A DNA stretch of 64,000 nt from an uncultured Saprospiraceae bacterium. Its GTDB lineage: Bacteria; Bacteroidota; Bacteroidia; Chitinophagales; Saprospiraceae. The position numbers and the translations under genes are program-made. The notes below the pieces were generated by a model. The model made no database searches. It worked only from the letters and a program-made list of their open reading frames with translations, and was not told the DNA's origin. Shown here one piece after another: positions 36,804 through 43,406 of the stretch (within the stretch, counting starts at the first letter, position 1; each line of letters opens with the position of its first letter). The stretch spans positions 1-64,000 of the forward strand of contig CALIHL010000021.1 of the NCBI GenBank assembly GCA_938022935.1, written 5' to 3'.

Positions 36804-36860
36804 AATTGAAGCAATTGTTATTCTGGATTATCGTCTTATCTTTTGATTCTAAACCTGGAT

Positions 36861-39275
36861 ATGATGATTCGACTACTTACTTTTTCTTTCGTTTTCTTGC
36901 TATTATGCTTTGACTCAGCAGCACAATCTACAAGCACTTTTGATATAGATGGACTGCAAGCAGAAGTAGAGATCATAACAGATCGATGGGGTGTCCCGCA
37001 CATCTATGCACAGAATGAAAAGGACCTCTTTTTCGCACAAGGATATTATGCTGCTAAGGATCGGTTATTTCAATTTGAGATCTGGAGAAGACAAGCGACA
37101 GGAACAGTTGCAGAGATCTTGGGAGAAAGAGAACTGAAGCGAGATATCGGTACTCGGTTATTTCAATTTCGCGGTGATATGGATCAAGAGATGAATCACT
37201 ACCATCCTCATGGTAAGTCGATCATAGAATCATATGTCGAAGGTGTTAATGCTTATATCAGCTATGTCAACGCCAATCCTAAAGAACTACCGATGGAGTT
37301 TGGACTTTTGGGTATCAAGCCTGGAGTATGGACGCCAGCAGTCGTTATATCAAGACACCAAGGATTGTTAGGAAATATCGGCGCAGAGTTAGCTACAGTC
37401 CGCGCTGTTGCTGCTATAGGGGCAGAGAAAGTGAAGGAACTAGGATGGTTTCATCCTCAAGAACCAAATCTTGATATAGATCCGGCGATCAATACTGACT
37501 TGCTTAAAGAAGATGTAATCGAGCTGTATAACGCCTATCGTAGACCATTACAATTTCAACCAAGTGACATCATCGCATATGAGCATAGTAACCAATCAAA
37601 CTACTATGATTTGGCGAAAGCTGAGGATGCCTCGTATGAAGCTTTTGTACGCGATGATCTGCAAGATATGGGAAGTAACAATTGGGTGATCGACGGAAGT
37701 CTTACCGAGTCTGGTTTTCCAATCATGGCCAATGATCCACATAGAAGACAATCTACACCTTCGCTAAGGTACATGGCTCACCTTGTTGCTCCGGGTTGGG
37801 ATGTGATCGGTGGAGGAGAACCTGAGATACCGGGTATCTCTATTGGGCACAATCAACATGGTGCTTGGGGACTTACGGTTTATCGGACTGATGCAGAAGA
37901 TCTATACGTCTATGAGTTGCATCCTGATGATCCGCACAAGTACAAGTATCGAGGACAGTGGGAGTCAATGACGATCATTAAAGACATTATAAAAGTAAAA
38001 GGGCAAGATGACGTAGAGGTAGAGCACGCCTATACAAGACATGGTCCAGTCACTAAGATTGATGCTTCTAACAACGTAGCTTATGCGATCAGATGTGGTT
38101 GGTTAGAAGTTGGAGGGTCTCCTTATCTCGCCAGTCTTAGGATGAATCAAGCGAAGAACTGGGAAGAGTTTAAAGAAGCATGTAATTATAGTCATATCCC
38201 CGGAGAGAACATGATCTGGGCGGACAGAGAAGGCAACATCGGTTGGCAAGCAGTCGGCATCGCACCAGTAAGGTCAGGATGGAGTGGGCTGATACCAGTG
38301 CCTGGAGATGGCAGGTACGAATGGTCGGGATATCTACCTATCATAGCGAAGCCATCATCTTATAACCCTGCTTCAGGTATCATCAATACATCCAATGAAA
38401 ATGTAACGCCAAGAGATTATGAGCACTGGGACGCAGTGTCCTTTCAATGGTCCGATCCATATCGAGGAGATCGAGTGTTAGAAGTCTTGAAGAATGGTCG
38501 TAGTCATAGCATGGCCGATATGGCGGCGCTGCAGACTGATTATCTTGCCATACCAGCTCGCCAGATCCTGCCATTGTATAAAAATATTGCAGGTTCAACT
38601 GACATGGATAAGAAGGCTTTAGCACTTTTACAATCTTGGGATTATCACATGACGCCAGATTCTAAAGCTGCAGGCATCTATAACGAATTAGAAAAACAAA
38701 TCAAGAAGGCAATTACCTACTTGAAAGTACCACCTGATCAAGGTGTCAATGTTAGCGTTCCCATTAAGAGAATTATAGAATGGTTGTACTTGCCAGATGG
38801 TGATTTTGGAGATGATCCATTGAAGGGGAGAGATGCAGTTCTACAGAGCGCCTTGCAAAAGACAGTTGCATCGCTCACTTCTAAGTTGGGTAAGAACATA
38901 GATGATTGGCAGTATGGGCAAGCTGATTACAAGCATGTCACGCTACGCCATCCAATGAGTAGCGCAGTATCAGAAGCCGTTAGGAAGAAGCTAGATGTTG
39001 GCCCTGCGCCCAGAGGTGGTTACAGTTTAACAGTCAATAATACTGGTGGACAGGACAACCAGCCCTCAGGAGCATCATTTAGAGTGATCTGTGATGTAGG
39101 AGATTGGGATCATACTTTAGCGTCTAACACACCAGGACAAAATGGAAATCCAGATCATCCGCATTATAAAAATCTCTTTGACATGTGGGCGAAAGATCAG
39201 TTCTTTCCATTGTTCTATACAAGGAAGAAGGTAGAAAGTGTTACCGATTATACGACAGTCTTGACGCCTAAGTAG
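36861..39275 (+). CDS. Penicillin acylase family (Ntn-hydrolase) protein
   Basis: ITDRWGVPHIYAQNEKDLFFAQGYYAAKDRLFQFEIWRR; SNNWVIDGSLTESGFPIMANDPHR (nucleophile Ser region). ATG at 36861 likely. Confidence 0.95.
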   Translation: MMIRLLTFSFVFLLLCFDSAAQSTSTFDIDGLQAEVEIITDRWGVPHIYAQNEKDLFFAQGYYAAKDRLFQFEIWRRQATGTVAEILGERELKRDIGTRLFQFRGDMDQEMNHYHPHGKSIIESYVEGVNAYISYVNANPKELPMEFGLLGIKPGVWTPAVVISRHQGLLGNIGAELATVRAVAAIGAEKVKELGWFHPQEPNLDIDPAINTDLLKEDVIELYNAYRRPLQFQPSDIIAYEHSNQSNYYDLAKAEDASYEAFVRDDLQDMGSNNWVIDGSLTESGFPIMANDPHRRQSTPSLRYMAHLVAPGWDVIGGGEPEIPGISIGHNQHGAWGLTVYRTDAEDLYVYELHPDDPHKYKYRGQWESMTIIKDIIKVKGQDDVEVEHAYTRHGPVTKIDASNNVAYAIRCGWLEVGGSPYLASLRMNQAKNWEEFKEACNYSHIPGENMIWADREGNIGWQAVGIAPVRSGWSGLIPVPGDGRYEWSGYLPIIAKPSSYNPASGIINTSNENVTPRDYEHWDAVSFQWSDPYRGDRVLEVLKNGRSHSMADMAALQTDYLAIPARQILPLYKNIAGSTDMDKKALALLQSWDYHMTPDSKAAGIYNELEKQIKKAITYLKVPPDQGVNVSVPIKRIIEWLYLPDGDFGDDPLKGRDAVLQSALQKTVASLTSKLGKNIDDWQYGQADYKHVTLRHPMSSAVSEAVRKKLDVGPAPRGGYSLTVNNTGGQDNQPSGASFRVICDVGDWDHTLASNTPGQNGNPDHPHYKNLFDMWAKDQFFPLFYTRKKVESVTDYTTVLTPK

Positions 39276-39964
39276 TGTGTGCTCAGGTGATCATAATAAG
39301 CTACAGTATCTTCTTTCAGTTGTTTGGGAAAGATAACAAAGAAAGCATGTAGCATGATAATGCAGATTGATAATAGAAAGCTGAACAATACAACCTTAGC
39401 AATAGTTAGCTCCATTAGCTGGAACTTGCCATGCATATCAAATAGCAGGTATGGAAGCACAGGGATACCGCCTATTGTTTTGTGATAGGCTTCGGATGAG
39501 ATAAGAGTTAGATCGCCATTTCCTTTTTTATAGGAGAAAAACCAAGTATGCATCAGCCATATCACATAAAGTAAGGTTGTGGTTTTAATCCCATAACCAA
39601 TAATTTGATTTGGATTTTGACTATTCAACAGGGTTATGCTGAAACAACCAGTTAGGGCAAGTAAAATCAAAACTTTAGGGAGTTTAAAATAACTAACCAA
39701 GTAGCCCCATAACTTCTTATTCCAACTCCAATATAGGTGATGCTTTTTCTCTTTGATTAAAGCGTTGATCTTGTCAGCTGGCCACTTTTTTAGTTCTGAG
39801 ACTACAAGGTCTATAGTTTGTCGAGTATTGTTATTAGCTAGTTCTTCTTCAACACCGCTGGCTATGTGATCGACTAACTCAAGCTCGACATCATAGTAGT
39901 TGATGTTAAGGGACTTTATCCATTTATGGATCTCTTGTATGTAGTGCGTGTGTAAGTTGGGCAT
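39248..39964 (-). CDS. Uncharacterised membrane protein with N-terminal E-x-x-D-H helical motif (array member 6)
   Basis: INYYDVELELVDHIASGVEEEL followed by four hydrophobic segments; paralogous to the neighbouring units. Confidence 0.8.
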   Translation of the reverse strand: MPNLHTHYIQEIHKWIKSLNINYYDVELELVDHIASGVEEELANNNTRQTIDLVVSELKKWPADKINALIKEKKHHLYWSWNKKLWGYLVSYFKLPKVLILLALTGCFSITLLNSQNPNQIIGYGIKTTTLLYVIWLMHTWFFSYKKGNGDLTLISSEAYHKTIGGIPVLPYLLFDMHGKFQLMELTIAKVVLFSFLLSICIIMLHAFFVIFPKQLKEDTVAYYDHLSTHYLGVKTVV

Positions 39965-40653
39965 CTAAGACAGTTTTAAGTGTTTATGGTATTCTGAAGT
40001 TTCTGTCCTTAGCTTCTTAGGAAGTTCAATTATAATCGCATGAGCGATGATGAGCATGAATCCCATGACTACACTGTGTATCACGTTTATGTGATCAGCA
40101 ATTAAAGTGTAATCAGTTGAGTTTAAGAAAATCTCAACGAAACCTACTGGTAAGAATACGAAGATTGCAGTATTGAAAAAAGCCTTTACTGTAAGAAGCC
40201 TGGGTTTTCTAAAATAGAATATTCGCTCTAATTTAAAAACACGAAGAACGCTATAACCTAAAAACGCCCATAGATTAATCTTGTAAAAAGCATTACTCGT
40301 GACTTCAAAATTGCCATAGAGCAAAACGGAGTTGTAAATAATAATACTCAAAGTGATCCAGATTATAATTTTCGGAAGTCTAAAATACTCTAAAACAAGT
40401 CTCACGATCTTTCTGGTCCAACTCCAGTATAATTGATGATTTTTTTCTTTGATGAGCTTCGTGATTTTATCGTTTACCAGTACTGTATCTCTTGATCAAA
40501 TACTGCTTGTAGGGACTGACTTGGATCTTTGGACATCTGAGCTTCTATCGAGGTCGCCAGATGATCGACTATCTCTAATTGAACATCATAATATTCAATA
40601 CCTTGGATTTTGGTCCATTCGTGTGGTGATTGTATGTTTTCCTTGCTGAGCAT
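39965..40653 (-). pseudogene. Frameshifted E-x-x-D-H membrane protein paralog (array member 5)
   Basis: ORF 40653-40474 (MLSKENIQSPHEWTKIQGIEYYDVQLEIVDHLATSIEAQMSKDPSQSLQAVFDQEIQYW*) continues in another frame as VNDKITKLIKEKNHQLYWSWTRKIVRLVLEYFRLPK, aligning to member 6 KWPADKINALIKEKKHHLYWSWNKKLWGYLVSYFKLPK. Restoring one G (tgg[g]taaac) rebuilds the gene. Confidence 0.88.
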
Positions 40654-40716
40654 CTTGCGGAATTCTTATAACAGATCAGTGATTGTCACTACTTGATGGT
40701 TAGTTAATTGCGCCAT

Positions 40717-41373
40717 TTAAGAAGAACTTGCAGTTAGTTTATTCACAACTTCAAGTTCCTCCATCATCATTTTATATACAGCTCTATGTCTCAAAAGCAT
40801 ATAAATGATTGCGATATAGGTCAGTGTAAAAACTATCGAGGAGTATTCTAAAGTGAGAATTGTGTCATGTTCTTTAATGACAGAAAAACAAGTCATTACC
40901 AAGCAGTAGGGAAGGATGGTGCTAAAGAGAATTCCATCTGCCAATAAGTGTATTCTTCTTTTGCTACTTGCAAATCTCTTGTAGACAACATAAGCAATCG
41001 GAATCATGGAAGCTTTATATAATATTCCAAGATCTGTGTTCTTAGCAAATCCGCTTTGTAAAAGAAAAAGTAATAGTATGACTGATAATGTAAGTTCAAT
41101 CCAGCTGATGGATTTTAGTGTTCTCTTGACAACCTCTATCTGGCTTCTTCGCAACTTTGATTGAAGTGTCTTGAGAATTGCTTTTTGTCCTCCATAGTTT
41201 CTCAATGATATTTTAAGTGAATTGTAAAAAGATATGGAGCTATCTTCTGTCATTCTCTTTTCAATATCGGTGATGATGTGATCCGCTATTTCTAATTTTA
41301 CAATAGGGACGTCAGTATTCATTCTTGAGGAAATTGCTCTTTCGGCTAAATCTATTTCTTCTTTATTTAGCAT
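40717..41373 (-). CDS. Uncharacterised membrane protein with E-x-x-D-H motif (array member 4)
   Basis: VPIVKLEIADHIITDIEKRM and C-terminal TM segments. Confidence 0.78.
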   Translation of the reverse strand: MLNKEEIDLAERAISSRMNTDVPIVKLEIADHIITDIEKRMTEDSSISFYNSLKISLRNYGGQKAILKTLQSKLRRSQIEVVKRTLKSISWIELTLSVILLLFLLQSGFAKNTDLGILYKASMIPIAYVVYKRFASSKRRIHLLADGILFSTILPYCLVMTCFSVIKEHDTILTLEYSSIVFTLTYIAIIYMLLRHRAVYKMMMEELEVVNKLTASSS

Positions 41374-41383
41374 ACTGTTGGAT

Positions 41384-41542
41384 TTATGATTCTATGGATT
41401 TCTTAGAAATAAGATCTTTGGACATCTGAGCTTCTATCGAGTTAGCAAGGTGGTCGGCAATTTCATATTGCACATCGTAATATTCAACACCTTGGATTTT
41501 AGTCCATTCGTGAAGTGATTGTATGTTTTCGTTGGTGAGCAT
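41384..41542 (-). pseudogene. N-terminal stub of an E-x-x-D-H paralog (array member 3, truncated)
   Basis: 52-aa ORF MLTNENIQSLHEWTKIQGVEYYDVQYEIADHLANSIEAQMSKDLISKKSIES*; matches the N-terminus of member 5, shares an identical 29-nt stretch and lacks the membrane part. Confidence 0.8.
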
Positions 41543-41547
41543 CCGTT

Positions 41548-42291
41548 TTATCCAGTTGGTCTAAGCTTGCTACTCAATTCGCTATGCCTGATATGATCGA
41601 TAGTATATCTTCTCCAAGTGAAGTATGATACACCAAATAAGACAAATGCAAAAAACCGAGATGACAAAATAGTCTCATCAAGAGTGAAGTAGAAAGCTGT
41701 TGCGAATAAGCTGATTGCAACCCATTGTAAGTTTTTTGCGATTACACCTTTATGCTTATTGTCATTGTTATTACTATATCTCTGGAAGTTTAAAGATGTT
41801 AACTTATAAGTAGCGTGAAGTAATAGAATAGAAAGCGTTATAAACGAGATGTAAACTAAGTATTTGCCAATTCCTGAGGAGCCGTCAAGAATAGTAACAG
41901 AAGAAGCTCCAATAATCCCAGGCATAACAATGTTGTCTATATTTCTGAAGCGTATTGCAATTTTGCTCTCTTCGACCTGCTTGATTTTAACTCGATCATA
42001 CACCATCTTCCTGATCCCTGAGCCTTTCCCAAAAGAGTTGTATAGCTCTTCATATTTTGCAAGAAACTCTGCTTTTGTAAGTTGGTTTGGGCTGCTTTCG
42101 ATCGCCTCGATGAAGTGATCAGTCACTTCAGTTTTGACTTGAGTATGATTGCTAAAGTTATTTTTAAAGACTTGCTCTATCTTATACGTGACGTATGCCT
42201 GGCGTTCTTCAGGAGTCGGATATTCACTGAGGACAGGAGTGTTGCTGCTTTTGAATGGATTCCAGTTTATAATGGCAGTTGCAATGCTCAT
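41548..42291 (-). CDS. Uncharacterised membrane protein with E-x-x-D-H motif (array member 2)
   Basis: THTQ-like region QVKTEVTDHFIEAIESSP followed by TM segments; start overlaps the upstream gene stop by 4 nt. Confidence 0.78.
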   Translation of the reverse strand: MSIATAIINWNPFKSSNTPVLSEYPTPEERQAYVTYKIEQVFKNNFSNHTQVKTEVTDHFIEAIESSPNQLTKAEFLAKYEELYNSFGKGSGIRKMVYDRVKIKQVEESKIAIRFRNIDNIVMPGIIGASSVTILDGSSGIGKYLVYISFITLSILLLHATYKLTSLNFQRYSNNNDNKHKGVIAKNLQWVAISLFATAFYFTLDETILSSRFFAFVLFGVSYFTWRRYTIDHIRHSELSSKLRPTG

Positions 42292-43025
42292 ATTCCAATT
42301 GTTCTATTTGAAGTGAGATCATTGAACTTTAACTCTATGTATACATGGTATACCGCTAGGATATAAGTCAGTGGAATGACAATGGCCATAGCATGTGAGA
42401 TTTCGAGTTCGAACCAACCCATATAGATTGGAAAGCTACTGAAGGCTAAAGAGACAAGAAAGACTTTCAAAAGTTCACCTCGATAGGTGGTAAGGATAAG
42501 GTCTACATTTTCTATTTTTTTCAGTTTAATGTAGCCCAGATACCATGATCTAATCATCACTGCGACTATTGTTATAGCGCAGATACTTGCCAAGCATTTA
42601 ATGACGATTTCGTTTAGGTCAAAAATGACCACGTTAAGAAGCATGATCAATATCAAAATGATACCTGATACCTTGTCTTGAGCCCACCAATACAAAAATC
42701 CTCTATGCAAATGACGGTAACTCATATGCATACTATGATACCCCATACTTCTGACCATAAGCGCTCCACCCAGCTCTTTGTAGATTTTATGATAAGCTTT
42801 GCAGAAGTCTTCTTTACTATCACTATTGGTTTGCTCTTCTAGACTGAGCATGAAGTGATCAAGCATCTCCGCTTTGAAGATGGTAAAGTCGCCCACCTGA
42901 TTCTCAAAGATCTCATCCAGCTTGGCCATGATAAAAGCCTCTTGTTCTTCCATAGTTGGAGTGTCGCTGAGTAACTCTTCAGCCTTCTTTCTCCCTGGTT
43001 CCCAGTATCCATCTATGGTTCTCAT
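42288..43025 (-). CDS. Uncharacterised membrane protein with E-x-x-D-H motif (array member 1, next to PadR)
   Basis: FTIFKAEMLDHFMLSLEEQT followed by TM segments; N-terminal QEAFIMAKLDEIFENQ parallels member 2 RQAYVTYKIEQVFKNN. Confidence 0.78.
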   Translation of the reverse strand: MRTIDGYWEPGRKKAEELLSDTPTMEEQEAFIMAKLDEIFENQVGDFTIFKAEMLDHFMLSLEEQTNSDSKEDFCKAYHKIYKELGGALMVRSMGYHSMHMSYRHLHRGFLYWWAQDKVSGIILILIMLLNVVIFDLNEIVIKCLASICAITIVAVMIRSWYLGYIKLKKIENVDLILTTYRGELLKVFLVSLAFSSFPIYMGWFELEISHAMAIVIPLTYILAVYHVYIELKFNDLTSNRTIGI

Positions 43026-43026
43026 A

Positions 43027-43359
43027 TCACGTAAGTTTTGGATTCATGATAAGAGAGATGCTATTGATGAAGTCCTGCATGGCGGAAAGCCTTGTGGTCA
43101 CTTCGGTCTTGCCTTCTTCAGTCAGTCGATAGTACTTGCGCATGCGATTACCGATGTTGCGTATCTCTGTTGTGAGTATGCCTTTCCCTTCTAGTCTGTG
43201 TAGAGCAGGGTAGAGGGCTCCTTCTGTGAGTTGCATTTCACCCTGAGTGATATCTTTCACCTTAGAGGTGATCTCATAGCCATACATCTCGTCGTTCTCG
43301 CTCAGGAGCTTTAAGATGATAGTGTCGAGACTGCCTCGGAGTAGTTTTGGATCAACCAT
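43027..43359 (-). CDS. PadR family transcriptional regulator
   Basis: LRGSLDTIILKLLSENDEMYGYEITSKVKDIT...LTEGALYPALHRLEGKGILTTE...RKYYRLTEEGK. Confidence 0.96.
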   Translation of the reverse strand: MVDPKLLRGSLDTIILKLLSENDEMYGYEITSKVKDITQGEMQLTEGALYPALHRLEGKGILTTEIRNIGNRMRKYYRLTEEGKTEVTTRLSAMQDFINSISLIMNPKLT

Positions 43360-43368
43360 AATCCAAAT

Positions 43369-43406
43369 ATACCTAAAAATCTTAGGTAACTAAGGTTCTT
43401 AGGTAT
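43369..43406. promoter_or_regulatory. 38-bp near-perfect palindrome upstream of padR; candidate autoregulatory operator
   Basis: ATACCTAAAAATCTTAGGT|AACTAAGGTTCTTAGGTAT; half-sites agree at 16/19 positions; ends 9 bp before the padR ATG. Confidence 0.75.

Follow-up and report, generated by a model that had tools for sequence, protein, structure and literature searches.

What is the role of a padR gene that is followed, in one tight row, by six further genes encoding related proteins? This question is raised by a locus of the contig CALIHL010000021.1 from an uncultured Saprospiraceae bacterium (class Bacteroidia), of which a stretch of 64,000 nucleotides, hereafter the window, was analysed. 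The row lies on the minus strand from position 43359 down to position 39248 and is composed of padR and of the units M1 to M6. We propose that it is an autorepressed PadR operon for inner-membrane proteins with a HAAS-like cytosolic adaptor domain, and that it represents the form taken in this class by the HAAS-PadR signalling pair. We regard this reading as moderately probable.

The shared domain, its linkage to padR and its probable kinship with HAAS

The six units had been predicted to share an N-terminal E-x-x-D-H segment, and a single profile of the N-terminal ~85 residues indeed recovers all of them (E-values in the family down to 1e-28). The alignment of 14 full-length members reveals that E28, D31, H32 and E38 are invariant. 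The D-H pair is also invariant in 81 diverse domains, where the glutamate located six residues after the histidine is conserved in at least 90% of sequences, and pairwise identity in the family is low (about 10-50%, mostly under 30%). No match was found in Pfam or NCBIfam for the membrane proteins of the window, nor any convincing Pfam match at E<=10 for 59 domain members; plasmids queried with M6 or with a relative close to the consensus gave no match. Modelled by AlphaFold from 81 sequences, the M6 domain has a predicted local distance difference test (pLDDT) value of 91 and contains helices at residues 6-17, 24-44, 50-59 and 63-84, the third helix being broken at the F-G hinge of the family.

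The full-length alignment was searched against 392 genomes of the class, which their gene content (GldL/GldM-type genes, the TAnnTTTG -7 element) suggests to be Bacteroidia; 75 of them gave a match, as did 66 of the 335 good ones. The linkage to padR was counted in stretches taken around strong and weak matches alike, which represent 77 distinct loci. A padR gene is present in 75 of these, or 75 of the 76 informative loci, the locus L065 being counted as uninformative because it runs into the edge of its stretch. This survey of the neighbourhoods agrees with the original prediction of a PadR-linked family, since homologs consistently lacking PadR were not seen. In the loci L045 and L046, padR is directly downstream of the membrane-protein gene and not upstream. 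In the genome G198, from the same genus as the window, a remnant of the transmembrane (TM) part only (L031:9761-10210) adjoins a sensor kinase/NtrC pair, and no padR was found. The number of copies per locus elsewhere is one (64 loci), two (13 loci), three (2 loci) or four (3 loci), some stretches ending early. With its six units the window array is the largest among 83 loci, so that its description as an unusual operon expanding by tandem duplication holds. The best explanation of the tandem copies is that they are diverged variants arising and decaying by duplication.

In PMC11237479, HAAS (PF22564/DUF1700) is described as a domain of three helices, the last of which is kinked. It invariably adjoins a stand-alone PadR gene and is joined to numerous TM parts, FtsX/MacB among them, and the authors put the HAAS-PadR pair forward as a substitute for two-component systems; they also unify DUF1048 (structures 2O3L and 2O4T) with HAAS. 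The M6 domain, as modelled by AlphaFold, also displays three consecutive helices with a kinked third one. Compared with the Protein Data Bank, the full-length M6 model gave TM-helix noise only, and the domain alone was used for the structure search. With this domain, Foldseek returned 68 matches among 350,542 chains, in which the DUF1048 structures 2o4t and 2o3l rank second and forty-fifth and have the highest query template-modelling scores among the listed matches (0.46 and 0.47, respectively). The helix topology of the model is HAAS-like, and unrelated folds were not seen. A comparison set of 18 HAAS domains was taken from plasmids, most of them beside an annotated padR and six of them checked as PF22564. 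Aligned over the whole domain with hhalign, the family gives against this set a score of 22.7, a probability of 29.5 and an E-value of 5.7e-4 for one comparison. A local rerun gives 18.4 against a maximum of 6.2 with shuffled columns; an unrelated PadR profile used as control scores 15.8 (probability 2.2), and the relation to HAAS by sequence alone is therefore suggestive only. Finally, the NCBIfam model perm_prefix_1 (permease prefix domain 1, NF038403) weakly matches 30 of the 81 members (best E-value 1.4e-6), on the same segment in the proteins checked, whereas none of the full-length units of the window matches it. The family resembles permease prefix domain 1 in that it includes an ADOP/FtsX-like permease (L069), and differs from it in that most members are not permeases. 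The phrase "permease prefix domain" was not found in any paper by a literature search.

Taken together, the AlphaFold topology, the DUF1048 scores, the hhalign comparison and the weak perm_prefix_1 matches make it probable that the domain belongs, as a divergent branch, to the HAAS / permease-prefix-1 superfamily. The likeness to HAAS had been taken for an analogy; the likeness stands, and remote homology is its more probable basis. The two systems are alike in the small three-helix N-terminal domain with its broken third helix, in the stand-alone adjoining padR, in the padR-first order and in the fusions to MacB_PCD/FtsX and to varied TM parts. They differ at the kink, where the GxP of HAAS is not present and the family has its F-G hinge (consensus FGxxG). 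The GldL/GldM-like and M23 fusions of the window family, described below, are not listed for HAAS in the passages of PMC11237479 consulted, and no PspC or Toastrack was seen in the family members scanned.

The padR promoter

Upstream of the padR gene of the window, we have detected the perfect operator-like palindrome TACCTAAGATTTTTAGGTA (43370..43388, positions -29 to -11 of padR) and a second, overlapping one with 1 mismatch (43387..43405). A -7 element TAnnTTTG (TATATTTG; 43364..43371, minus strand) ends 4 nt before the padR ATG, and its first TA is common to the palindrome. Of 79 family padR promoters, 66 contain the 19-bp palindrome TACMTAA-N5-TTAKGTA with no more than 2 mismatches, and in 40 of these it is perfect, against a mean of 0.7 and a maximum of 3 in dinucleotide shuffles; it typically sits over the -7 element. 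Twenty-six of the 79 promoters, the one of the window included, have their best palindrome (<=3 mismatches) with its start exactly at -29. The motif TAnnTTTG is present in 53 of 80 stretches upstream of padR, for 3.7 expected. In 34 of 79 promoters its end lies 4 nt ahead of the ATG, and the leader is for this reason likely to be very short or lacking.

Because the palindrome had been defined on the family promoters themselves, a blind search of 12 genomes was added. Of the ten exact sites, eight fall at padR promoters of the family and two are inside open reading frames; three of the 12 genomes have no exact palindrome. The 4.06-Mb assembly of the window contains 5 sites at <=1 mismatch, of which two are the overlapping sites at the window padR, one heads an operon of contig 192 and two are elsewhere, without padR. 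Both family operons of this genome are thus headed by the palindrome. The reversed pattern, used as control in the same genome, gives 11 sites per strand, and it is therefore the position of the sites, not their number, that is informative.

The palindrome marks the family padR promoters, sites found blind included, and PadR for this reason very probably autorepresses the operon through it. The layout TACM-N11-KGTA of the predicted operator matches the cdPadR1 site TACT-N11/12-AGTA with its AT-rich core, which was tested by electrophoretic mobility shift assay (PMC5050560). Two precedents point to the same regulation. In Listeria monocytogenes, LltR represses lmo0600 (DUF1700) about 118-fold (PMC6624303). 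This strongly autorepressed system also has padR followed by the gene of a DUF1700 (HAAS) membrane protein; it differs by the phylum, by a HAAS recognised by Pfam and by a DUF4097 partner. In Elizabethkingia anophelis, mutation of padR (vsr1) leads to overexpression of vsr1-ORF551 and to resistance against vancomycin (PMC10812688). There too padR precedes a membrane-protein gene and the loss of PadR derepresses the operon and changes an envelope phenotype, but ORF551 has a phage-shock-type domain.

Architecture of the window operon and of its relatives

The padR gene (43027..43359) encodes a winged-helix regulator of 110 amino acids (aa) that belongs to the PadR family (PF03551, E-value 6e-22, 77.9 bits for a gathering cut-off of 27). 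It is followed, on the minus strand, by M1 (42288..43025, 245 aa), its paralogue M2 (41548..42291, 247 aa), M3 (41384..41542), M4 (40717..41373, 218 aa), M5 (39965..40653) and M6 (39248..39964, 238 aa). M1, M2 and M4, in which the domain was detected by the profile, and M6, where it occupies residues 1-85, combine the HAAS-like domain with a TM core. M3 is a stub of 52 aa that contains the HAAS-like domain only and represents a truncated copy nearest to M5. In M5 the HAAS-like domain (40474-40653) and the TM core are split by a frameshift. The gaps are of 1 nt (padR/M1), 5 nt (M2/M3), 10 nt (M3/M4), 63 nt (M4/M5) and 0 nt (M5/M6), and M1 and M2 overlap by 4 nt; the coordinates and spacing of the predicted PadR-headed row of seven units were verified. 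The several TM helices expected in the intact proteins are recovered in M1, M4 and M5, whereas the hydropathy plot gives fewer in M2 and M6; the structure model of M6 contains more long helices than the plot. The 3' end of M6 overlaps by 28 bp (39248-39275) with a convergent penicillin-acylase-like gene (36843-39275, plus strand).

Four units are intact (M1, M2, M4 and M6), and the two others are the ones predicted to be degraded. By comparison with the intact copy of the same-genus genome G196 (229 aa, DNA identity of 85%), M5 is broken by a single missing base near 40476. Both halves are under purifying selection, with ratios of non-synonymous to synonymous substitutions (dN/dS) of 0.07 and 0.12 against G196, and the break is for this reason either recent or an assembly error. 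M3 is also a stub in G196, there without start codon and without the D-H pair, and its truncation is therefore old. Against the same genome, dN/dS is 0.16 for M1, 0.29 for M4 and 0.11 for M6 (96% identical to its G196 copy), which corresponds to purifying selection. The PadR protein is 100% identical to that of G196 at a synonymous divergence (dS) of 0.63.

The original prediction described membrane proteins. The linkage of these to PadR stands, but the family is wider, since permeases, M23 peptidases and GldL/GldM-like parts also carry the domain. The architecture of the window type consists of the domain and a core of 3-4 TM helices. In L069:2375-5411, padR is followed by an ADOP/FtsX-like permease (MacB_PCD and FtsX) of ~900 aa with the family domain at its N-terminus, and in L070:2450-5498 by a protein of ~900 aa similar to it in length and N-terminus. 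GldL and GldM are parts of the gliding/type IX secretion motor. PadR-linked proteins in which the domain is fused to GldL_N-like TM helices and GldM_1st are found in L058, L063, L071, L072 and similar loci, the variant of L072 having both GldM_1st and GldM_2nd. In L076 the domain is joined to a peptidase M23, and the second family operon of the window's genome, on contig 192 (L138:2530-4655), consists of an M23+LysM protein, padR and a protein with the domain, TM helices and M23. The fusions to MacB_PCD/FtsX, GldL_N/GldM and M23 repeat the HAAS pattern and point to the envelope. In several genomes of the family f50, operons with padR and 2-4 family members run on into a DUF5687 permease and an ATP-binding cassette (ABC) ATPase; operons of this composition were recorded in G127, G445, G556, G622, G630 and G607. 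In the loci of this type L013, L078 and L139-L142, a ferredoxin-reductase-like gene is divergent to padR. No paper covering both DUF5687 and PadR was found by literature search.

A proposed circuit and its alternatives

According to the proposed mechanism, for which the promoter sequences argue strongly at its first step, a PadR dimer would bind TACMTAA-N5-TTAKGTA over the -7 element of a near-leaderless promoter and shut the operon. The N-terminal helical domain of the membrane proteins would be kept on the cytosolic side, close to the membrane. When the TM part perceives a change of the envelope, this domain may be altered, possibly through its conserved E/D/H face and the break of helix 3, and by analogy the altered domain may then bind or release PadR. 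PadR would leave the DNA and the operon would be made in quantity. The membrane proteins would then counter the stress, as would, in other species, the fused permease, the M23 peptidase, the GldL/GldM-like part or the co-transcribed DUF5687 ABC transporter, and newly made PadR would reset the switch. Envelope stress as the trigger is what we infer by analogy. A broader claim, to which we give slightly less than an even chance, is that of a class-wide, unmodelled form of signalling in which one PadR, one dedicated operator at a near-leaderless promoter and one portable, cytosolic adaptor domain serve diverse envelope machines, including GldL/GldM-like parts and peptidoglycan peptidases, as an alternative to sensing by two-component systems or extracytoplasmic function (ECF) sigma factors.

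Several observations weigh against the proposed circuit. By the Pfam test, the domain is not a HAAS member: no match to Pfam HAAS (PF22564) was found for the window proteins at E<=1, nor for 59 members at E<=10, while real HAAS controls match at 1e-10 to 1e-17, and the predicted distinctness from HAAS/DUF1700 is thus confirmed at the sequence level. The invariant D-H pair, which the family has instead of the D-Y-x-x-H of HAAS, does not coincide with that motif. The hhalign probability for HAAS is only 25-30%, the Foldseek E-values of the two DUF1048 entries (1.7 and 8.3) are not significant alone, and the perm_prefix_1 scores seen (13-24 bits) are all under the cut-off of 30 bits. A distant member in the genome G157 (L081:4381-5109) has no padR nearby and has also lost the D-H pair. 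Finally, direct binding of small molecules is known for PadRs such as LmrR.

This last point underlies the main rival, in which PadR does the sensing itself, through a ligand pocket like that of LmrR, and in which the domain never touches PadR and only gives the envelope effectors a handle for docking or oligomerisation. Drugs are bound directly by LmrR-type PadRs; the effectors are of very different kinds (permease, M23, GldL/GldM), the domain and PadR being constant; and an ABC transporter follows in several f50 genomes. However, a mere handle would not predict a coupling to PadR in 75 of 76 loci, nor is the loss of the D-H pair in the only member without PadR (L081) expected of it, and we consider this rival unlikely, yet a serious one. 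It is more improbable still that the family represents accessory subunits of the DUF5687/ABC transporter, the window array being a decaying remnant deprived of it: the PadR-family-DUF5687-ABC operons of six genomes and the two broken units of the window agree with such a role, whereas many loci have no adjoining ABC genes (the window, G076, G210 and G214) and M1, M4 and M6 are under purifying selection. A chance likeness of unrelated small helical segments beside padR genes, which the low pairwise identity might suggest, is already contradicted by the D-H pair invariant over 81 sequences, the single profile that recovers all members, the PadR linkage and the common operator, and has a negligible probability.

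A role in anti-phage defence was rejected, as PADLOC gives no match for the membrane proteins, in line with the predicted absence of a defence-type enzymatic domain; for PadR it gives weak echoes only (Csa3, NDT), which correspond to a shared winged-helix similarity.

The wider family and its operator are more interesting than the six-copy array. A member is present in about one in five of the genomes surveyed in this class, and proteins of the window type have neither a Pfam domain nor an NCBIfam name. Through the domain profile, the D-H pair and the operator motif, these "hypothetical membrane proteins" become a single envelope system under PadR control that can be tested, and PadR is tied to GldL/GldM-like parts and to cell-wall peptidases. 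The 19-bp palindrome at the family padR promoters is new here and allows the prediction of regulons genome by genome. Altogether, the family suggests a widespread, uncatalogued way to sense or repair damage of the cell envelope.

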